This document shows positions 967 to 47,598 of a DNA stretch of 47,598 bases, piece by piece. A program made the position numbers and the translations under genes. The stretch is taken from IMG/VR virus record IMGVR_UViG_3300021478_000046, positions 1 to 47,598 of that record, one strand, 5' to 3'. The notes beneath the pieces are model-generated. The model saw only the letters and a program-made list of their open reading frames with translations. It was not told the origin of the DNA and ran no database searches. Positions within the stretch are counted from its first letter, which is position 1; every line of letters begins with the position of its first letter. The DNA is from a virus.

Positions 967-1617
967 CTAAGAATTCTGCGTAGAAACTTTATTTGCCCAC
1001 CGCTTGCGTTGACCGGCACTAAGATTTGCTAGCCATTCTGCGGAGAAAGGTGGTCTTTTTCTCCCAGACAATGCAGCACTTACTTTAGCGATGTGTTCTG
1101 GAGATTGTTTCTTACCCAACTTCGCTGCTCTCATCTTTTCTTTGGCTTCAGCGGTATGCGGCGTATTGTGCGCTCCTCCGCGAGCAGCAAGAGCGGCATG
1201 TGCGGCTGCGGTATGTTCCGGAGAGAGTTTTACTCCCTTGTGGGCATCGCTGAGTTTTTTCCGATACTCCGCGGAAAGTTTCTTTCCTTTGTTCCAGGCA
1301 ACCCGCACAGTGGGACCGCCAGCGCCGCCGTCGCAAAGATTCAGGAGTTTTTCTCCGGCTGCTTTTACTGTGGCAATCCAGAACTTTTCCCAATTCATCC
1401 ACTGTTCGGCAGAGCATTGCGTAAGCACCGTCATCCTTGGCTTCAATCCTAAAGACTGAAGCTCGGCAACGAATGCCCGCAACCCTTTATTGACGTAGCC
1501 CCGGCTTGGTTTCATATGCCCACGAAGCCGACCAGGTAGACTGTTAGTCTTGCCGACATATCGAATCGCCCAATTCCGTGGGTCGTGGAGAGCGTAGATG
1601 TAGGCGCTCTCAGCCAT
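967..1617 (-). CDS. GIY-YIG homing endonuclease with NUMOD3-like repeats
   Basis: A 216-residue GIY-YIG nuclease. The motif appears as YIY at residues 6-8 and YVGKT at 20-24, followed by the catalytic Arg region RLRGH at 30-34. The C-terminal half has repeated Gly-Lys/Ser-x-Glu-His helices of the NUMOD3 DNA-binding type (for example around residues 115-135 and 165-190). It overlaps the upstream gene by 8 bases and sits between structural genes, as expected for a free-standing homing endonuclease that invaded the capsid operon. Confidence 0.88.
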   Translation of the reverse strand: MAESAYIYALHDPRNWAIRYVGKTNSLPGRLRGHMKPSRGYVNKGLRAFVAELQSLGLKPRMTVLTQCSAEQWMNWEKFWIATVKAAGEKLLNLCDGGAGGPTVRVAWNKGKKLSAEYRKKLSDAHKGVKLSPEHTAAAHAALAARGGAHNTPHTAEAKEKMRAAKLGKKQSPEHIAKVSAALSGRKRPPFSAEWLANLSAGQRKRWANKVSTQNS

Positions 1618-2924: not shown

Positions 2925-3197
2925 TCAAGTCTTTCTTTCGTTGAGGTTTTTCTTCCAAACTGCAAGGTCTTCCGGAAAGCCGATATTCATGCGAATGGCA
3001 GCTAATTGGCCGCGGATAAAGTTCACTTCTTCGATGGTCTTGGCGCTATGTTCGAGCCGGTCCAGTAGGTCCGCCACCTGCCCCTGCCATTCCGCCAAGA
3101 GCCGCGAGTAACCCGGCCGGTCCACTAGATCCTGAGCCGTCTCCAGGTCCGCCAGCAGCAGGGGCCACAGCTCCGACACTGGGACTTGCTTTGCCAT
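2925..3197 (-). CDS. Small helical protein overlapping the portal gene
   Basis: A 90-residue, Leu/Glu/Asp-rich helical protein (MAKQVPVSELWPLLLADLET...). I chose ATG 3197 because GGAG lies six bases upstream; a longer reading to 3251 lacks this. Its first 152 bases are inside the portal gene in another frame. The C-terminal portion, which mentions no known motif, is outside the overlap. The function is unknown, possibly portal- or head-related. Confidence 0.65.
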   Translation of the reverse strand: MAKQVPVSELWPLLLADLETAQDLVDRPGYSRLLAEWQGQVADLLDRLEHSAKTIEEVNFIRGQLAAIRMNIGFPEDLAVWKKNLNERKT

Positions 3198-5091
3198 CTT
3201 CGTCTCCAAACTTCGGCTCCGGAGCGTAAGCTTCCGGCTGGTCGAATTCAAATTCTCTCAGCACTTGCCAGAAGAAAGCGTTCTGCCCGCGCGCTACCGC
3301 AATGAAATACTCCTTGAACTGCTCTGGGATAGCTGCGCTCGAGATAGCCTGCAAGAGATTGGACATGCCCATATGATGCTGGCGGAGCGTGGCATTCAGC
3401 AGCAGCATGTTTTGTTTGCGAACTTCTCTGTTTGCCGCCGCGCTGCTCGCGCGAATAGGTATGCGGATTCTGCGCTCAAGGAAGTCTGATAGCGCTTCTT
3501 CGAGAATCCGGTCGTCTACCCCAAAGAGAGCTCCCTTGCCGCCTGTACCCATTGCTCCGTACATGTCGGTGTCGAGTGAAACCAGCCTGACATGCGAATG
3601 CCGGAAGTCTGAAGTTCTGTGCCCTACTCGGGAGTTAGCGTCCTGCATCACCGCTACTGTGCCCATCGAGCCGAAGCGGCCTTTCTTGTCCGCGCTGCCG
3701 GCGCCCATGCCGGCGACCGCAGGACCAACGCCCGCGCGATCTTGCGCTTGCCGCTGGATCATTTGTTCGTTCTCGATCGACACACTCGACATATTCGGCT
3801 CGCCAATCGAGATGTGCTCGAACTCTCCTGCGCGGAAGGGCGCCGCGGCGCCTGGGTAAACCTGGAAATTACGGTCGATGTTTTTGTTGCTCGGGTCTAT
3901 GCGGTTCATTCCCAGGATGCCGAAGGCTGTTGCATCGTGCCGCTGGTTTTTAGTTGTCGAGAGTTCTTCCTGGTAGTGGTCCAGCATCCAGGCATAGCCT
4001 TTGCCAAACTGTCCTTTGCGGTCGTTAGAAAGCTTTGTCTTGACGATCGGCAACTGGTTGTACGGAATGAAATTGAAAACCAGACGCAGGACGGTTTTGG
4101 TCTCGAAGTGATACCACATGATAAGCCGATACTTCACATCGTTATGGAACCAGGAGAAATAGCACTCGTACACATCCCACTCGGCCATCGAGGTTTCATC
4201 GGCTGAGTCGATGCCTTCTTTTTGTTGCGCGCGCTTCTTGATTTCACTCGCCCCGTAGCGATCGGGATGCGACAGGATCTTGTTTACTTCTTCTTGCGGG
4301 TACATCTTGTCGGCAACGCGTTCGACAAAATCTCTGCGGTCAAGAGACAAGACATGGTAGACCACTTTAGATTCATCGAGCGTATCTACTTTAGGATCGC
4401 AGCCGACGTCTTCGTGCTCGAGATTGACAACTTTCGGCCCGCGGTACATCACTGTCTCTTTCATTTCGGTTTTGCGCGCGTCCGCATCGTAGCCAACATA
4501 TTCCGCTTCGATCTTTACTTCTGGACGCACCTTGACAAAAGCTGTGCCCAGGCGCGAAGAATCCGCAAACCAGATGTTTTCTACGCGGTAGAGGTCGAGT
4601 TCCGTGGGCTCGTAAGCGGTGTAGTCGGTGAAGGTTTCTAGAGCCCGGCACTTGTCGAGGTTGTGTTGCGCGGCTTTTGCGTCCGCAGCTTTCTCGAGCC
4701 ATCGGTATATCGCAATAGGACTAGTGAGGTAGACAATTGCCATGACTCGAGCTGCGATGTCGTCGATGGTTTGTCCGACAAGTTGAACCACCAGATTACT
4801 GCATCCCGCAAAAGGAAATGACTTTTCACGTTCTTTTGGCTGGCCGTCCGCGATGTCCCGGTATCTTGGGATTTCATGCTTGTTCAGCCTTTCCAGTTGC
4901 TTTTTGTACACGCGAATTTTTTCATGCACCCATTTGCGAATGCCTTCCTGGACTTCTGCGCTGAACTTGGTGTCATGCAACTCGAAGCTGCGTGAGCGCC
5001 GGAAACTGATTTTAGTTGGCGTCAGGTCCTTGGAAGGTAGCGGGAGAGCCTTGGGGACAGCAGGCTCCGGAATCGGGGGCATAGTACTCAC
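3046..5091 (-). CDS. Portal protein
   Basis: A 681-residue portal, the dodecameric ring through which DNA enters and leaves the head. Near residues 90-100 it has the FPFAGCSNLV segment typical of P22/podovirus-type portals (P-[FW]-x-G-x-S-N). It also has the long mixed alpha/beta body and helical C-terminal part expected for the family, and follows the large terminase directly. The last ~50 residues are Gly/Ala/Pro/Ser-rich and lie wholly in the overlap with the next gene, so this tail may be recent. Confidence 0.88.
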   Translation of the reverse strand: MSTMPPIPEPAVPKALPLPSKDLTPTKISFRRSRSFELHDTKFSAEVQEGIRKWVHEKIRVYKKQLERLNKHEIPRYRDIADGQPKEREKSFPFAGCSNLVVQLVGQTIDDIAARVMAIVYLTSPIAIYRWLEKAADAKAAQHNLDKCRALETFTDYTAYEPTELDLYRVENIWFADSSRLGTAFVKVRPEVKIEAEYVGYDADARKTEMKETVMYRGPKVVNLEHEDVGCDPKVDTLDESKVVYHVLSLDRRDFVERVADKMYPQEEVNKILSHPDRYGASEIKKRAQQKEGIDSADETSMAEWDVYECYFSWFHNDVKYRLIMWYHFETKTVLRLVFNFIPYNQLPIVKTKLSNDRKGQFGKGYAWMLDHYQEELSTTKNQRHDATAFGILGMNRIDPSNKNIDRNFQVYPGAAAPFRAGEFEHISIGEPNMSSVSIENEQMIQRQAQDRAGVGPAVAGMGAGSADKKGRFGSMGTVAVMQDANSRVGHRTSDFRHSHVRLVSLDTDMYGAMGTGGKGALFGVDDRILEEALSDFLERRIRIPIRASSAAANREVRKQNMLLLNATLRQHHMGMSNLLQAISSAAIPEQFKEYFIAVARGQNAFFWQVLREFEFDQPEAYAPEPKFGDEDGKASPSVGAVAPAAGGPGDGSGSSGPAGLLAALGGMAGAGGGPTGPART

Positions 5092-5108: not shown

Positions 5109-6791
5109 TTACCACCCTGTAACGGAAGCATGTCTTTGACGGAAGGTTTGATTCTGCTTTTGCAAAAAGCCGATGACGTCGTTGCTAGTGGTCGAATCAA
5201 GGGTCTGCGGAACGTAGCCGAAGGTGTCCAGCACATCTACGGTTGCGGACGCAGGATAGGCAAGGTACTCGGAAATGAAAGCATCCTGGCTGCGATGGCA
5301 GAACACATTGAAGTTCCTGAAGAGAGGTTCAGTGGCTTCAATCCTGTTCTTCTTGGCGTTTGCGGAATTGTCGTAAGGCAGTTCTATGACATGCACAGGC
5401 CACTTCGCGCGGTCGTTCCTGTCCTGAATGTAAAACTGCATGAGGTTCTGCGCCGCAACCAGTTCCATGTACGCTGACCGTAAGCCCCACTTTTCAGCCA
5501 GTTCATAGAATTTGTCCACCAACTCTCCGTACCCGGTCGCTTTGGCCCACACTTCGCAAATGTAGATGCGCTGCGTTTTAGCGTCATAGCCGACAATCAG
5601 GATGACGTGGTTGGCGCGCTTCTTTTTTTTGTTATGCGCGAGGTCCACAAGCATTCTGAGAGAAAGTGAACCAGCTTCAATGTCCGGGATAGTCTCGCCG
5701 CCCTGTACTTCGTGCTGAATCATCAGAACGTTGCGCAGGTCTTCAAGCGGCAAATCCGGCCGGCTGGCTTGGTAGCGAAAGTATTTCAGCCATTCAGGCT
5801 TGAATATCTGCTCCTCCGGAAGCATGGAGACATTACGCATTTGGTGCGAGTAGTTGTAGGGTCCGAGGCGGGTGCGGTAGCGCGCAAGCTTGGCCATCGT
5901 CCATTCTTCAGGAAAAATCGGCACGCCGTGCTGTGGATGTTTTCGGCAACAGCCACCTTCGGCATCGTGCGTTTCCCACTTGAAAGCTGGTTCGTGAACG
6001 CGAATCCAGCTATTCAGGTCGTCATGGCTCCAGCGGTTTCCGACGATCAACTCTTCGTCAATCTTGTCTGCAACAGATATTTTGTTTCCGAGTTCGTCTT
6101 CCTGCGGCTCGGTGTCGTAGACTCCGGTAAGCAAACAGTGATAGTCGATGGTGTCCTGCATGACCACTTCAGACTTCAGTGCGTCGCGGCCTACCAGGTC
6201 GTCTTCAATAATCAAGTCAAAGTGTTGCGACTGGATAGCTTGACCGACACCACGGTAGGTGAAGGTAGCCTCCGCGCGGTCCATCGTTCGTTTTTGGTAT
6301 TTCCCTTTTTCATTCCAGGTAGCTTCAGGGCCTGGAAGGATGTCCGTAAACGCTGCCCGAAAAAGAGAATTGTTCTGATAGTGGTTGTCCACGTTCTTGG
6401 CCATGATGGCCGCATTGTCGCCGGTCTCGGTGACAATCAGGATGCGGATGTTCTGATTGTGAACCCGCTTCATCCAGGAAATGTAGGCGTCATCCATGCC
6501 GGCCGCGCGCATCAATAGTTCGTCGTGGACCGTGAATGGCAGCGCTCGCCAGATCGCATAGGCTTCGGTTACGCAGGTGGACTTAAAATGACGCCGCGGG
6601 CATTCAAGGCCCAACTGCACGTTGTCGCGTTCGAGCGACATGGACATGCATTCGTAATGGAATCGCGCAAGGCGGTGACGTTTCAGGGTGTGGCGGGTGA
6701 AGAAGAAGTGGCTGGCTAGGGAATTGAGGCGCACCGCCGTGCGGTATTTCTTGTCGTCTTCAAAGTGTAGCGGGAGGAGTTCCCACTTCAT
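5109..6791 (-). CDS. terL: Terminase large subunit
   Basis: A 560-residue packaging motor. The ATPase has a Walker A-like CPRRHFKST at residues 64-72 and a Walker B DLIIEDD at 192-198. The RNase H-like nuclease domain begins near 380 (LVDLA, Asp383) with a second strand around VGYDAKTQ (400-407). ATG at 6791 has AAAGG upstream. It overlaps the 71-residue gene before it by 32 bases and precedes the portal, the standard order. Confidence 0.95.
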   Translation of the reverse strand: MKWELLPLHFEDDKKYRTAVRLNSLASHFFFTRHTLKRHRLARFHYECMSMSLERDNVQLGLECPRRHFKSTCVTEAYAIWRALPFTVHDELLMRAAGMDDAYISWMKRVHNQNIRILIVTETGDNAAIMAKNVDNHYQNNSLFRAAFTDILPGPEATWNEKGKYQKRTMDRAEATFTYRGVGQAIQSQHFDLIIEDDLVGRDALKSEVVMQDTIDYHCLLTGVYDTEPQEDELGNKISVADKIDEELIVGNRWSHDDLNSWIRVHEPAFKWETHDAEGGCCRKHPQHGVPIFPEEWTMAKLARYRTRLGPYNYSHQMRNVSMLPEEQIFKPEWLKYFRYQASRPDLPLEDLRNVLMIQHEVQGGETIPDIEAGSLSLRMLVDLAHNKKKKRANHVILIVGYDAKTQRIYICEVWAKATGYGELVDKFYELAEKWGLRSAYMELVAAQNLMQFYIQDRNDRAKWPVHVIELPYDNSANAKKNRIEATEPLFRNFNVFCHRSQDAFISEYLAYPASATVDVLDTFGYVPQTLDSTTSNDVIGFLQKQNQTFRQRHASVTGW

Positions 6792-6975
6792 TTTTTACCT
6801 TTGCGTCTCTTCGAGCTACCCAGTCCTTGTACCACACCGGGATTCTCTCACGGTAATGGTTGGCTTGCTCCTCGGCAAACTGTTCCACGGTGATACCGCG
6901 CTGCTTCAGGTACGCCTCGAGAGTCGGATAGTGGATCAGCGTGGTAACGATTTCTTCTGCGTCGCGGAGGCTCAT
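6760..6975 (-). CDS. Small acidic helical protein, unknown
   Basis: A 71-residue helical protein with sequence such as YLKQRGITVEQFAEEQANHY. It is coupled upstream by ATGA and overlaps the start of the large terminase by 32 bases. It is too short for a usual small terminase, though its place makes a packaging accessory conceivable. Confidence 0.6.
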   Translation of the reverse strand: MSLRDAEEIVTTLIHYPTLEAYLKQRGITVEQFAEEQANHYRERIPVWYKDWVARRDAKVKNEVGTPPATL

Positions 6976-7235
6976 GCGGTTGTTCCCATTTCATGCTTGA
7001 TGGCTTCCAGTATTTTCTTGCCAGCCTCGTAGGAGTCAGAGACTAGATATGGACCTTGAATCGTGAAATTCACTTCGCATTTTACGCAGATGAACATTTG
7101 CCCGTAGTAGTAATCTCCTTCGCCGTGTTCTTCCCAAACTCCATGCTCACCGCACGCGGGACAGAAAAATTCGCTCTTTTCGTAAGAGTGCTCGGTAGTG
7201 TGGCCAAGTTTATGCCTTACTGTGATATTCAGCAT
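6972..7235 (-). CDS. Zinc-ribbon-like small protein
   Basis: 87 residues with a CPAC pair near residue 25 and a CVKC pair near 51, separated by an acidic/aromatic strand. This is a treble-clef or zinc-ribbon arrangement. It lies eight bases downstream of the GroES-like fusion and is coupled to the next gene by ATGA. The partner is unknown. Confidence 0.65.
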   Translation of the reverse strand: MLNITVRHKLGHTTEHSYEKSEFFCPACGEHGVWEEHGEGDYYYGQMFICVKCEVNFTIQGPYLVSDSYEAGKKILEAIKHEMGTTA

Positions 7236-7242
7236 TGCGCTT

Positions 7243-7779
7243 CTACGCGGTAGTGCTCGCCGCGACTTTCTTCTTGAGGCGCCGGAGTTCCAAGTGCCCT
7301 GACACCTTGCAGATTACTTCGGTCTCGTGGCAGATGACTACCAAATATTTCTTTTCTTCTCCCGTCTCGGGATCTTCCCCGCCAAGTTCAAGTTGATGGC
7401 CCGCATAGCTTGGAAACATGACGGACTGTCCGTTCGAGAGTAACTTCACGTCAGGACCGCAGGAAACGATGGTCCCGGTAGTGGGCTCGTTCTGCTTGTT
7501 GTCGGGGATGTGGATGCCGCCTTTGACTACGCCTTTGCCCTTGCAATCTTCGCAGACGACCTTGCCGCGACCGGAGCACATGGAGCAGCGCGCGCCCGTC
7601 GTTACTAGGCTTCGGCCGGCGCCGAGACAGGACGGGCAGCGGTTCTCCCCCTCGCCTTCGCAAGCCGTGCATTCGTAGCCTGAGCGAAACTCGTCACGCA
7701 CCACCACGATGTAATCGTGGAAGGCTTCGAGTCCGAGTGGGCCGACTTTCAGGGTATTGGATTGCTCAACGATGGGCAT
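7243..7779 (-). CDS. GroES-like co-chaperonin with inserted DnaJ-type zinc finger
   Basis: 178 residues that read as a Cpn10/GroES fold interrupted by a DnaJ cysteine-rich domain. Residues 14-31 (LGLEAFHDYIVVVRDE) match the first GroES strand. Residues 37-83 hold four perfect CxxCxGxG motifs (C37/C40, C48/C51, C65/C68, C76/C79). Residues 87-92 (GGIHIP) resemble the GroEL-binding mobile loop (GGIVIP), then GTIVSCGPD and FPSYAGHQLEL continue the barrel. ATG 7779 follows GGAG. No GroEL is encoded, so the host chaperonin is the expected partner. GroES family membership is from motif order; the insertion at the mobile loop is unusual. Confidence 0.8.
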   Translation of the reverse strand: MPIVEQSNTLKVGPLGLEAFHDYIVVVRDEFRSGYECTACEGEGENRCPSCLGAGRSLVTTGARCSMCSGRGKVVCEDCKGKGVVKGGIHIPDNKQNEPTTGTIVSCGPDVKLLSNGQSVMFPSYAGHQLELGGEDPETGEEKKYLVVICHETEVICKVSGHLELRRLKKKVAASTTA

Positions 7780-7993
7780 TCAGGCTCCTTAGCAAATCTT
7801 CTCCGCTAGGGCTTTGCTCGAGCGCGGCTGGCGGAGCGGGGCGAATCGACTCAAAATAAAGTAGCAACGCAGTCCGTATAATGTCGCTTCTCGTCGCTCC
7901 CGGACGTTCGCGGATGAGCGCATGGAGCTGGTCGAGTACATCGCGCTGCAAGCGGACATGAATCACTTCATTTTTTTTCCAAGTCTTGACCAC
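7766..7993 (-). CDS. Ribbon-helix-helix DNA-binding protein
   Basis: 75 residues. The strand EVIHVRLQRDVLDQL, then the helix ending in RPGATRSDIIRTALLLYF, is the pattern of CopG/Arc-type ribbon-helix-helix regulators, which dimerise and insert a beta-ribbon in the major groove. The start is GTG at 7993. It overlaps the genes on both sides. It probably regulates this small-gene block or itself. Confidence 0.75.
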   Translation of the reverse strand: MVKTWKKNEVIHVRLQRDVLDQLHALIRERPGATRSDIIRTALLLYFESIRPAPPAALEQSPSGEDLLRSLNAHR

Positions 7994-14570: not shown

Positions 14571-14796
14571 CTTCGCAAGGAAACGCCCTGGTATGGGCCA
14601 GACTGACCGCGAGTACGCTGCGATCGAATCCTTTGGGCACAAGACCGCGCGGCCGATTCTGACCGTGGCAATGGAGCGCGGAGGCATGCTCAGTTACGGT
14701 GTGGACTCCGGGCTCTGCCGGCAACTGACTGACACTGACCGCGAGGCGATTGTGGAGACTGTGCGCAAGATGCTGGAGGAAAGGAAGCGGACATGA
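14563..14796 (+). CDS. Small protein
   Basis: 77 residues, with a basic N-terminus (ARKRPGMG) and a helical C-terminus. It overlaps the broken ASCH gene by 8 bases. GGAAAGGACC is upstream. Unknown function. Confidence 0.65.
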   Translation: MANFARKRPGMGQTDREYAAIESFGHKTARPILTVAMERGGMLSYGVDSGLCRQLTDTDREAIVETVRKMLEERKRT

Positions 14797-15065
14797 ACAG
14801 AAAATTACTGACTGCCGATCAGATTGTGGCGCGCGCGACTGACGTCAAAGCCGTACCGTGCCATATCTGCGATGGCGAGGGCTTTACTGACACCGACACG
14901 CTTTGCTGGAATTGCTCTGGCTCTGGCGCCGTCCTGGTGACGACCGTGCGACCCAAGCGGCCGGTCGAGATTACCGGACGCATGGTGCTGGGTATCTTCG
15001 TGGTCTTTGCCGCGGTTCTCTCGATTCTCTTGATGAGTCTATCTGAATACCTGTCCTCGCGGTGA
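14793..15065 (+). CDS. Half DnaJ-type zinc finger with membrane helix
   Basis: 90 residues. Two CxxCxGxG motifs (C23/C26/G28/G30 and C38/C41/G43/G45) could make a single zinc site as in DnaJ cysteine-rich domains. Residues 64-84 form a hydrophobic helix. ATGA overlap with the previous gene. A small membrane-anchored zinc-finger protein is predicted; no function is known. Confidence 0.72.
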   Translation: MNRKLLTADQIVARATDVKAVPCHICDGEGFTDTDTLCWNCSGSGAVLVTTVRPKRPVEITGRMVLGIFVVFAAVLSILLMSLSEYLSSR

Positions 15066-43447: not shown

Positions 43448-43720
43448 CTAGTATACGCCCGCTCTCGCACTGACGTGTTCCATTTGTGAGAGGACATCTG
43501 TGGGGTTAAAAGTTTTCGGGTCTGGCGTCAACTCCCTTCGGTCCTTGGAAATTTCTCTGGCCTCGCGCAATTCAAACGAGCCATTGATGTCCCGGTCATG
43601 GCATCCGTAAACGTTGCAAACAAGCAATCCCGCGTCCCAATGGCACATGCTGAGAGGCACCTTTCTTTGGCATCTCTGGCATGTCCAGTAGGTAAATTCT
43701 AGATAGCCTCTCCAAATCAT
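43448..43720 (-). CDS. Zinc-finger small protein
   Basis: 90 residues with CQRC (15-18) and CNVYGC (36-41), a zinc-ribbon pattern. ATG overlaps the previous stop (TGATG). Confidence 0.65.
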   Translation of the reverse strand: MIWRGYLEFTYWTCQRCQRKVPLSMCHWDAGLLVCNVYGCHDRDINGSFELREAREISKDRRELTPDPKTFNPTDVLSQMEHVSARAGVY

Positions 43721-45234
43721 CAAGACTCCGAAACAATCGCCAAGCCAGTCGGAGCAGCCGGAGCTACCGGCGCGGCTACGGGCTGCGACGGAGGCAATTG
43801 CAACGGCGAGCCAATCGGCGGGTCAAGCGTCTGCCAGACTACGCTGCCATCCTGCGTTGTTCCGCCAATGGTTGGGTTGAAGGTAATCGTCGTACCAACA
43901 GGGCTGGTGATTCCAGGAACAATGACTTCCTGATACGTTCCGCTGGCGCAATCGAAGAAAACATTCCCAAGACTGACAGGGACACCATGCGCGTAGATGA
44001 TGAGCGTGATCGGAATGAACATCGCCACATTGTTATCCTGCATGGTCACGGCGCCAGTGAGTGCAAGCAACTGGCCGTCGATGTTCGCTCCGGTAACAAG
44101 CGTGATCGAAACCTTGGCAATCATGATGCCGCTGAAGAGAGAAGCTGTGCCGATGGTTGCAGAACTGCCAATGAACCAGTACACGTTCGCAGCTTGCGCG
44201 CCGCCGCGCAGAACAATTGTTCCAGCCATCGTCAGCGCGGTACCGACCTGGAAGACCCAAACCGCATCGGCATTTCCGTTGGCGTCGAGGACCAGGTTCC
44301 CGGTAATGCCCAGCGAATCAGGAGCAAAGTAGACCCCCGGAGCAAGCGTCATGCCGCCAATGTTGGCCGCAGTACCAAGATTCGTGTTAGGACTTCCGGC
44401 AGTAGCCGCAACCATCGCCGAGCCAGCCGCCGTTTCCGCCGTCGCTGCGGTATTCCCGAGAGCCAGTGAGGTGATGGTCTGAGCGGTACAAAGGAACGTG
44501 CCATTGTTCGCGGCATTCGTAAAGCCGGAAGTAGTTACCAAGCGCCCGACAAGTCCAGTGCCAACAGGAAAAGTCCCGAGATAGTTCGCCGAGCCAGCCG
44601 CCGAAGTGGTGCAAGACGTCAGCGGGAACGGACCTGCCACTGGCAAGCCACCGATTCCGGGAGCGTTTACCGCCGCCATGCCAAGATTGAAAGCTGCCAG
44701 GGCATCCGCTTGCGCAGCGATAGCCACAAAGTCGTTGATATGCTCCGAGCCGGTATAGAACCCCGGCCCGCCCGGAGTATCGAATCCGGTAATCGAAGTG
44801 CCCGGAGCGACGCCAATGTCGCCACGTACTTCGGTTGCTCCGGTATTGGTGATGGTCGTCGCGGCCAGCACGCCAAATCCGGAAGCGCGTCCAAGCGAAA
44901 TGTTTGGAGTGCCCGGAGGGAAGGGTACAAAGACGGTTTCTACTTCATTCGAGAACGGACTCTCGAGCCCGCTGACAAAGGCTGCCACGCGGTAGAAATA
45001 CCTGGACCCAGCCAGCACCGTAGAATCGGTGTACGACGGCTTCGTGCCCAAAGCAAAAACCAATGGAGACGAGTTGAGCGGCAACGGCCCCTCGCCATCG
45101 GACGAAGCGCCGCGGAAGACGTCATAAGAGACATTGACTTCCGTATTGGGATTCCAATTCAGCGTGACTTGTGACATTTGTTTTCCCTCTGGGGCTACTG
45201 TGAGCCCAAAAATTCTCGAAGCTGTCTGCGGCAT
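43720..45234 (-). CDS. FN3 + DUF3494 ice-binding-type adhesion protein
   Basis: 504 residues. FN3 at about 20-107 and a DUF3494 (type-I ice-binding) beta-solenoid at about 111-403: LGRASGFGVLAATTITNTG, GDIGVAPGTSITGF, MTLAPGVYF, NADAVWVFQVGTALT, NVYWFIGSSATIGT, GANIDGQLLALTGAVT. A non-family stretch at about 205-285, resembling tail beta-modules, interrupts it. A further beta-rich C-terminal part follows. It lies among capsid-proximal genes and likely decorates the virion. ATG 45234 chosen; 45177 has a good AGAGGG too. Confidence 0.85.
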   Translation of the reverse strand: MPQTASRIFGLTVAPEGKQMSQVTLNWNPNTEVNVSYDVFRGASSDGEGPLPLNSSPLVFALGTKPSYTDSTVLAGSRYFYRVAAFVSGLESPFSNEVETVFVPFPPGTPNISLGRASGFGVLAATTITNTGATEVRGDIGVAPGTSITGFDTPGGPGFYTGSEHINDFVAIAAQADALAAFNLGMAAVNAPGIGGLPVAGPFPLTSCTTSAAGSANYLGTFPVGTGLVGRLVTTSGFTNAANNGTFLCTAQTITSLALGNTAATAETAAGSAMVAATAGSPNTNLGTAANIGGMTLAPGVYFAPDSLGITGNLVLDANGNADAVWVFQVGTALTMAGTIVLRGGAQAANVYWFIGSSATIGTASLFSGIMIAKVSITLVTGANIDGQLLALTGAVTMQDNNVAMFIPITLIIYAHGVPVSLGNVFFDCASGTYQEVIVPGITSPVGTTITFNPTIGGTTQDGSVVWQTLDPPIGSPLQLPPSQPVAAPVAPAAPTGLAIVSES

Positions 45235-45990: not shown

Positions 45991-46953
45991 TCACGGCCCA
46001 AACGAGCCGTATGTCCCGTAGAACGTTGTAGCGCCGACCGAAAAGCGCTGCGTCGAGAGGAACAGAAGCACCTGCGTCTGGAAGTCGTCGTCGGTCTGAG
46101 CGGCCAGCGCTTCACGCTCGTAATACTTGAGCTGATGCCCTTCCTTCTCCGCGATCATGAACCATGCGCTTTGGCTCGTCAGGTAGTTCAACTCCAGCCC
46201 CTCGAGCTTGTCTGCAAGCAGCGAGTTCAATTCGTTGTCGTTGGTTCCAGGCTTGCCCGGAGAGCCCAAGACTTCGCGCACGATCCAACGCAATTCAGGA
46301 GGATGCACCACATGGCGCGGCTGAACGTGTACCGGAATACCGCGGCCGTCTGGCATTCGCGTAAAGATGTTGATGGCTTGCTGCACCGCGGTAAAGCTGA
46401 AGTCAGAATCAGGAGTGGGCCGGTTCGGGTAAGTTCCCGCCGAGGTAATGATGTTCGAGATGCCCGGAGCAAAGCCAGTTGCTTCCGTTCCGCCAATGAG
46501 CGGCTGCGAAACATTGAACAGCGAGATTCCGGTATTGGTCAAAACCGTAGAGCCACCAAGGTTGAATAGTGACGCCGAAACTGCCTCGCGTGAGAACAGC
46601 GCTCCGCGGGCATGCGCCTTGGGCATTTCGCGAATGATCCCGTACTTGTCGTCTGCAACAAGCTGCCGGGTAACTTGCGACAGCAAGCCGTACTGAAGAT
46701 GGATGTACTTCTTGGTGCCGCCCTGCAAGATGCCGTCTGAAAGCGGCCGAGTCCCTTCCGGCATTTCGGGCATCGGCCCGGTGCCGGATAGTTCGTAGTC
46801 GATTTCGTAGGCGTCTTCGGAGTCCATGACGTTCAAATAGTGCGTGTACTGCGCTGCACGTTGCTTGAGGTCGAAGAACTGCACGAAGATGTGTCGCAGC
46901 CCGGGCGCGAGCAGTGGGGGAAAGTTCGCGCGGCTGAGTTGTGTGATAGGCAC
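45991..46953 (-). CDS. Major capsid protein
   Basis: 320 residues. Position after the decoration gene, and a body with long helices and the pattern YLNVMDSEDAYEIDYE (strand-turn-strand) fit an HK97-fold coat. The start is GTG 46953 with AGGAGG (46960-46965). It shares residues 14-26 with the Tat-signal protein at 8938. The 5' end has an alternative allele at 1..294. Confidence 0.82.
   Translation of the reverse strand: MPITQLSRANFPPLLAPGLRHIFVQFFDLKQRAAQYTHYLNVMDSEDAYEIDYELSGTGPMPEMPEGTRPLSDGILQGGTKKYIHLQYGLLSQVTRQLVADDKYGIIREMPKAHARGALFSREAVSASLFNLGGSTVLTNTGISLFNVSQPLIGGTEATGFAPGISNIITSAGTYPNRPTPDSDFSFTAVQQAINIFTRMPDGRGIPVHVQPRHVVHPPELRWIVREVLGSPGKPGTNDNELNSLLADKLEGLELNYLTSQSAWFMIAEKEGHQLKYYEREALAAQTDDDFQTQVLLFLSTQRFSVGATTFYGTYGSFGP
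46660..46786. repeat. Terminal overlap A, second copy
   Basis: Identical to bases 1..127. See that entry. Confidence 0.85.
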
Positions 46954-47005
46954 TTAAAGCCTCCTAAGCCATGCGCAGGGAGGAAAATGTGTTAAACTTC
47001 CCTCC

Positions 47006-47509
47006 ATGCCATACGCTGATCCTGAAGTACAAAAAGCATACGACCGCAAAAAGTATCTGAAGAACCGAGACAAGATTCTTGCTCGCATGAAAAAATATGG
47101 AGTACAGAACCGCGAACACATTAGCGCCTACCACAAAGAGTGGGAGAAGAAGAATCGTGCTCAAGAAAACGCACGCCACCGTAAGTGGAGAGCGAGTCAG
47201 ACTCCGGAATCCAGGGCCAAAACTCTGGAGACGACTCGCGCCTGGTGTAAACGGAACCCGGAAAAGATGCAAGCCCGTAATAGGCGGTACGCTGCAAAGA
47301 ACAGAGCGCAGTACGTTGCTCACCATGCCGTCGCTGCGGCTATTACTTGCGGGATGCTGATTCGTCCGAATGCTTGCTCCAAGTGTGGGAAAATCGGCAG
47401 ACCATTCGCCCATCACCCTGATTATTCCAAGATGCTCGAGGTCGTTTGGTTGTGCCACGGTTGTCATCTCGAAGCTCACAGCGGGTCCTTTAACCCGATT
47501 ACGCGATGA
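47006..47509 (+). CDS. HNH endonuclease, allele-specific insertion
   Basis: 167 residues on the strand opposite the structural genes. A basic helical N-terminus, then CSKCGKIGRPFAHHPDY and VVWLCHGCHLEAH give the HNH zinc core. It lies between the capsid and decoration genes, converging with the decoration gene end by 11 bases. The left-end allele has only 31 bases here, so this is a presence/absence insertion. A GGAGG at about 46980 is paired with CCTCC near the ATG. Confidence 0.9.
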   Translation: MPYADPEVQKAYDRKKYLKNRDKILARMKKYGVQNREHISAYHKEWEKKNRAQENARHRKWRASQTPESRAKTLETTRAWCKRNPEKMQARNRRYAAKNRAQYVAHHAVAAAITCGMLIRPNACSKCGKIGRPFAHHPDYSKMLEVVWLCHGCHLEAHSGSFNPITR

Positions 47510-47598
47510 TCTGGATTGCCGAGTTCAGGAACACAAATAGAACGTGTCCGCCAACCGTGCCGATGGGCTCGCGCGGGTCGATACCGACGATTTGCAGT
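47499..47598 (-). CDS. Capsid-associated protein, 3' fragment (right-end allele)
   Basis: The last 32 codons and stop of the gene at 326..955, repeated because the window runs past the circle. Stop codon is TAA here and TAG in the left copy. Confidence 0.85.
   Translation of the reverse strand, partial: LQIVGIDPREPIGTVGGHVLFVFLNSAIQIIA
47500..47598. repeat. Terminal overlap B, second copy
   Basis: Identical to bases 327..425. See that entry. Confidence 0.85.

Follow-up and report, generated by a model that had tools for sequence, protein, structure and literature searches.

The usual picture of a co-chaperonin is of a simple lid in which a short docking loop is the part that varies. Both T4 gp31 and the plain phage GroES proteins, such as that of Bacteroides phage DAC16_261, are GroES-fold lids that lack the roof hairpin and carry a hydrophobic docking motif in a mobile loop of ordinary length, free of any zinc finger. 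Gp31 substitutes for GroES in the folding of the T4 capsid protein, and its longer loops and missing roof result in a larger chamber (PMC6318259). The chloroplast DnaJ-like zinc-finger chaperones BSD2 and ZnJ2 are free-standing proteins of plants and algae, outside any co-chaperonin, and contain a compact two-zinc hairpin with four CxxCxGxG motifs. BSD2 works on a chaperonin-dependent client, acting at a post-chaperonin stage on Rubisco large subunits and stabilising their assembly (PMC5859369); ZnJ2 holds non-native clients and suppresses their aggregation, and a Cys-to-Ser form of it retained the holding activity (PMC5818400). The cysteine-rich domain of DnaJ (Hsp40) also has four CxxCxGxG motifs, with longer spacers between them, in a protein that has a J-domain and partners DnaK. 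Inserted modules have been described in two other settings. The HMO-2011-type phage DNA polymerase is likewise split by CxxCxGxG motifs forming a partial DnaJ domain (PMC9038755, PMC6918029), although there are two motifs and the interrupted protein is a polymerase rather than a GroES. An engineered human Cpn10 display scaffold carries a binding module in the mobile loop and keeps its heptamer with suitable linkers; it is man-made, and a short peptide replaces the native loop (PMC5118791).

Here we describe a viral gene that combines these elements. It lies in a 47,598-base stretch of DNA from an IMG/VR virus record (hereafter the window), and its product is, with very little doubt, a phage co-chaperonin of the GroES/gp31 type with a compact two-zinc finger of the BSD2/DnaJ type interrupting its mobile loop. 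Our preferred explanation, to which we assign a probability of roughly 0.45, is that the protein would cap the host GroEL as a lid with fingers that hold clients. An earlier note on this DNA knew of no characterised phage protein of this design, and we likewise found no description of a finger-bearing co-chaperonin among 5.39 million openly accessible papers. The two halves are known separately; what appears to be new is their combination, together with its conservation and the repeated additions of fingers at the roof.

A GroES barrel with a docking-type loop

The open reading frame is on the minus strand, begins with ATG and encodes 178 residues. The gene and the parts of its product are as follows.

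7243-7779 (-), stop included: zinc-finger co-chaperonin coding sequence (open frame, ATG, ribosome-binding site; Cpn10 E 1e-8)
7785-7790 (-): Shine-Dalgarno sequence AAGGAG, 5 nt ahead of the co-chaperonin ATG (from the sequence)
7687-7737 (-): first barrel strand region LGLEAFHDYIVVVRDEF, residues 15-31, equivalent of GroES RPLHDRVIVKRKEV (finger-removed profile alignment; strand 23-28 in the model)
7531-7683 (-): inserted zinc finger, residues 33-83, motifs at 7648-7671, 7615-7638, 7564-7587 and 7531-7554 (Pfam BSD2_CRD/DnaJ centre; finger-only model; cysteines invariant in 32 members)
7504-7521 (-): retained mobile-loop motif GGIHIP, residues 87-92 (aligned to GroES GGIVL; floppy in the model; 39 of 42 members have the hydrophobic tripeptide)
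7300-7488 (-): remaining GroES barrel, residues 98-160, lacking a roof hairpin (Pfam, AlphaFold2, Foldseek, profile alignment)
7270-7299 (-): C-terminal tail GHLELRRLKK, more invariant than any other stretch of the family (alignments)

Four approaches agree that the product is a Cpn10/GroES-fold protein possessing both the barrel and a docking-type loop. Pfam matches residues 74-157 to Cpn10 above its cut-off (E 1.1e-8) and finds the same domain in 20 of the 22 family members scanned. Once the finger is cut from all members, the family profile aligns to residues 4-96 of E. coli GroES (E 4e-6), with EAFHDYIVVVRDEF falling on GroES RPLHDRVIVKRKEV and GGIHIPDNKQNEPTTGTIVSCG on a stretch of 22 GroES residues. 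In a profile search of the PDB the closest solved sequences to the barrel are algal Cpn20 and bacterial GroES; the best of these, a chloroplast Cpn20/Cpn23 (7ekq, E 8e-15 with the family profile), differs in having two tandem Cpn10 domains and no finger. The structure prediction and Foldseek search that the earlier note had proposed as a check on its GroES barrel returned one: AlphaFold2 models the barrel confidently (about 90) and the finger at about 80, leaves the docking motif at residues 86-94 floppy, and the best PDB matches of the model are GroES and T4 gp31, the best viral matches being GroES. As neither the insert nor the tail has a counterpart, the overall TM-scores are moderate. The roof hairpin is missing from the window protein and from most family members, as it is from gp31 and DAC16_261, and is therefore not required for membership of the Cpn10/GroES group. 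In 39 of 42 members a hydrophobic tripeptide of the docking type lies 5-10 residues past the last finger cysteine, the exceptions being those on contigs L006, L045 and L059; these three apart, the family does not show the combination that the earlier note had named as fatal to its reading, homologs keeping the finger without the mobile-loop motif. The tail that follows the barrel has the consensus GHLELRR[LVM]K[KR] in the core family.

The inserted zinc finger

All four perfect CxxCxGxG motifs reported previously are present: CTACEGEG (residues 37-44), CPSCLGAG (48-55), CSMCSGRG (65-72) and CEDCKGKG (76-83). They lie between the first barrel strand and the GGIHI motif, with a docking-type GGIHIPD right after them. 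The earlier note had placed them just before the mobile loop; they are indeed directly ahead of GGIHI but, since GroES aligns end to end once the finger is removed, the insertion point is inside the N-terminal arm of the loop rather than in front of it.

The assignment to a DnaJ-type finger also needs some refinement. Pfam matches to residues 37-87 of the window protein are below the respective cut-offs for both DnaJ_CXXCXGXG (E 9e-4) and BSD2_CRD (E 1e-4), and the DnaJ centre was found at E<=0.01 in 18 of 22 members scanned. BSD2 and DnaJ are the closest solved sequences to the finger (E 1e-7 for the DnaJ profile match); anti-TRAP gives a weaker match to part of it. A structure model of the finger alone (pLDDT 90.2) is closest to chloroplast BSD2, with a TM-score of 0.86, and DnaJ fingers come next. 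The insert is accordingly best described as a predicted two-zinc finger of the BSD2/DnaJ type, DnaJ-like in its four motifs but nearer to the compact BSD2 form than to DnaJ in length. No J-domain gene (PF00226) was found in the window, and hence the window protein is not a DnaJ. The likeness to BSD2 is one of domain only, for the finger is embedded in a phage GroES barrel and is not a free-standing Rubisco assembly factor.

Conservation and variation of the family

The finger-in-lid design occurs in about 45 distinct IMG/VR contigs, gathered by walking along terminase relatives and by two viral scans with patterns outside the finger. All 42 members that are readable through the loop have the finger, and in these the insert opens with [ST]G[YFHM][ED]C; very divergent finger-less homologs could have been missed by the scans. 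Tblastn with three members retrieved no relatives from 50,697 phage records, among which plain phage GroES genes do occur, and two genome scans found no cellular relatives in 84,980 genomes. Two candidates were set aside: gp78 of Arthrobacter phage Bolt007, which has CxxC motifs but is unrelated, and DAC16_261, a GroES of the plain kind.

The loop contains exactly eight cysteines in most members, four in a few and nine in one; counts of eight or four are as expected if the motifs pair into four-cysteine zinc sites. Reduced forms, in which the loop has only one CxxC pair, arose in two separate groups (L048, 763-1413; L072, 7857-8411; L073, 1-411). Conversely, an additional CxxC pair is located where GroES has its roof hairpin in L010 (2947-3768), L047 (4908-5678) and L069 (5049-5729). 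In a quick tree of the barrel only, the roof-pair members fall into three separate groups, requiring three changes, and a single clade uniting them is rejected (p-AU 1e-6); the roof pair was thus gained separately in three sublineages, with recombination of the roof segment as a possible alternative.

The co-chaperonin is under purifying selection. Between the window and the 95%-identical contig L001 the finger has accumulated 16 synonymous and 0 non-synonymous changes, and dN/dS is below 0.3 in deeper pairs, the non-ligand residues of the finger varying more than the barrel. The single open frame, the ribosome-binding site, the roughly 45 homologous contigs and this selection together rule out a chance or frameshift artefact.

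A place in the head and packaging block

The window encodes a terminase, an SU10-like portal, a capsid protein, an endolysin and RecT-like and clamp-loader proteins, and the co-chaperonin gene resides within its head/packaging gene block. The genes of interest are these.

5109-6791 (-): terminase large subunit, conserved downstream neighbour (PHROG 38, E 1e-44; synteny)
3046-5091 (-): portal protein of the SU10 type, conserved downstream neighbour (Pfam SU10_portal, E 1e-11; synteny)
7766-7993 (-): ribbon-helix-helix protein gene, overlapping the co-chaperonin start by 14 nt (Pfam RHH_1, E 3.5e-5)
45991-46953 (-): probable major capsid protein, which may be a client (Pfam Phage_capsid_4, E 5e-9)

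This arrangement is widely shared. In 40 contigs the terminase gene lies in the same direction at most 2.2 kb downstream of the co-chaperonin gene, down to a slight overlap, with the portal gene next after it in nearly all; only in the most distant group (L071-L074) is the co-chaperonin gene placed elsewhere. Each searched record with a co-chaperonin gene has at most one Cpn10. GroEL was not found in the 29 records searched (28 records and the window), and the protein presumably uses the GroEL of the host. The co-chaperonin gene is also adjoined by a gene for a small zinc-ribbon-like protein (6972-7235, minus strand) with a weak Lar match below the cut-off.

What the finger may do

Since gp31 caps GroEL for the T4 capsid protein, the window protein should by analogy cap the host GroEL for virion proteins encoded nearby, and docking to the host GroEL is probable. 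Seven subunits would form the lid, bringing seven fingers, and with them 14 zinc ions, to the mouth of the chaperonin, where the fingers might retain phage clients or set their orientation, either ahead of encapsulation or as they are released; virion proteins such as the capsid or portal protein would be the likeliest clients. The design suggests that the lid has a site of its own for contacting a partner, which might be the phage proteins undergoing folding. Capture of clients by the finger, which the post-chaperonin action of BSD2 and the suppression of aggregation by ZnJ2 make plausible, is our best single guess as to its role, at somewhat under even odds. Counted in favour of the lid with client-holding fingers are the profile and fold matches, the finger-removed GroES alignment, the near-universal docking tripeptide, the wholly synonymous changes in the finger, the cysteines in fours, the synteny and the lack of a phage GroEL in the searched records. 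Counted against it, docking could be hampered by a loop that carries a finger, the tripeptide is missing from three members and the non-ligand residues of the finger vary more than the barrel. Furthermore, at 320 aa the probable capsid protein is small and has no obvious need of a special cage, and zinc need not matter for holding given that Cys-to-Ser ZnJ2 still holds (PMC5818400).

The same variability outside the zinc ligands, which are themselves fixed, would suit the chief rival explanation, namely that the finger is a spacer or docking adaptor: an arm, stiffened by zinc, that makes the mobile loop longer and so raises the lid, altering the cage volume or fitting an unusual host GroEL, with no client contact. 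Gp31, with its longer loops, absent roof and larger chamber (PMC6318259), offers a parallel, and most family members are equally roofless. A simple spacer would have no need of a BSD2-like fold, however, and the recurrence of a second CxxC pair at the roof is left unexplained; overall we consider this account unlikely.

The fixed position beside the terminase and portal genes, the extreme invariance of the tail and the partial resemblance of the finger to anti-TRAP, a zinc-binding regulator, could instead be read as signs that the protein is not a working co-chaperonin and that the GroES barrel has been turned to a new use in packaging, in the virion or in nucleic-acid binding, its contact surfaces being the finger and the basic GHLELRRLKK tail. 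Retention of the docking tripeptide by 39 of 42 members speaks against such reuse, as do the commonness of plain phage GroES genes and the fact that gp31 is also a head-assembly factor, and we judge it improbable. That the finger is an assembly or stability element, tying neighbouring subunits together or ordering the loop for ring formation, perhaps in a redox- or zinc-dependent manner, has only a slim chance of being correct: the cysteines are the conserved feature and the heptamer assembly of human Cpn10 changes when its loop carries a designed insert (PMC5118791), but GroES and plain phage GroES proteins assemble without a finger (PMC6318259).

Returning to the lid with client-holding fingers, we propose tentatively, with rather more doubt than assent, that this phage lineage has merged two activities that are separate proteins in cells, substrate holding by a BSD2/DnaJ-like finger and chaperonin capping by GroES; client capture would thereby be situated on the lid itself, at the mouth of GroEL, and the number of fingers would have been altered by repeated gain and loss in the mobile loop and roof. 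A natural family with a structured zinc module at the docking loop, and in some members more at the roof, makes client selection or holding by the lid directly testable, and the finger-bearing lid represents a natural template for programmable chaperonins.

Other features of the window

A homing-endonuclease-like gene (967-1617, minus strand; phrog_314, E 4e-17) is situated within the head gene block, and near the capsid gene a 504-aa protein (43720-45234, minus strand) contains an Ice_binding-like domain (PF11999, E 3.6e-49) that is unusual in phage. A small protein in which a CxxC..CxxC pair is followed by a hydrophobic, membrane-like stretch (14739-15062, plus strand) is kept in the near relative L001 (686-1066, minus strand). 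No tRNA was found in the window. The contig ends overlap imperfectly, positions 327-425 being the same as 47500-47598, and the map is therefore probably circular; positions 1-297 are 84% like 46660-46956, the start of the capsid gene. Only one of the two end copies contains the ORF at 46964-47479, which may thus be a variable insert.
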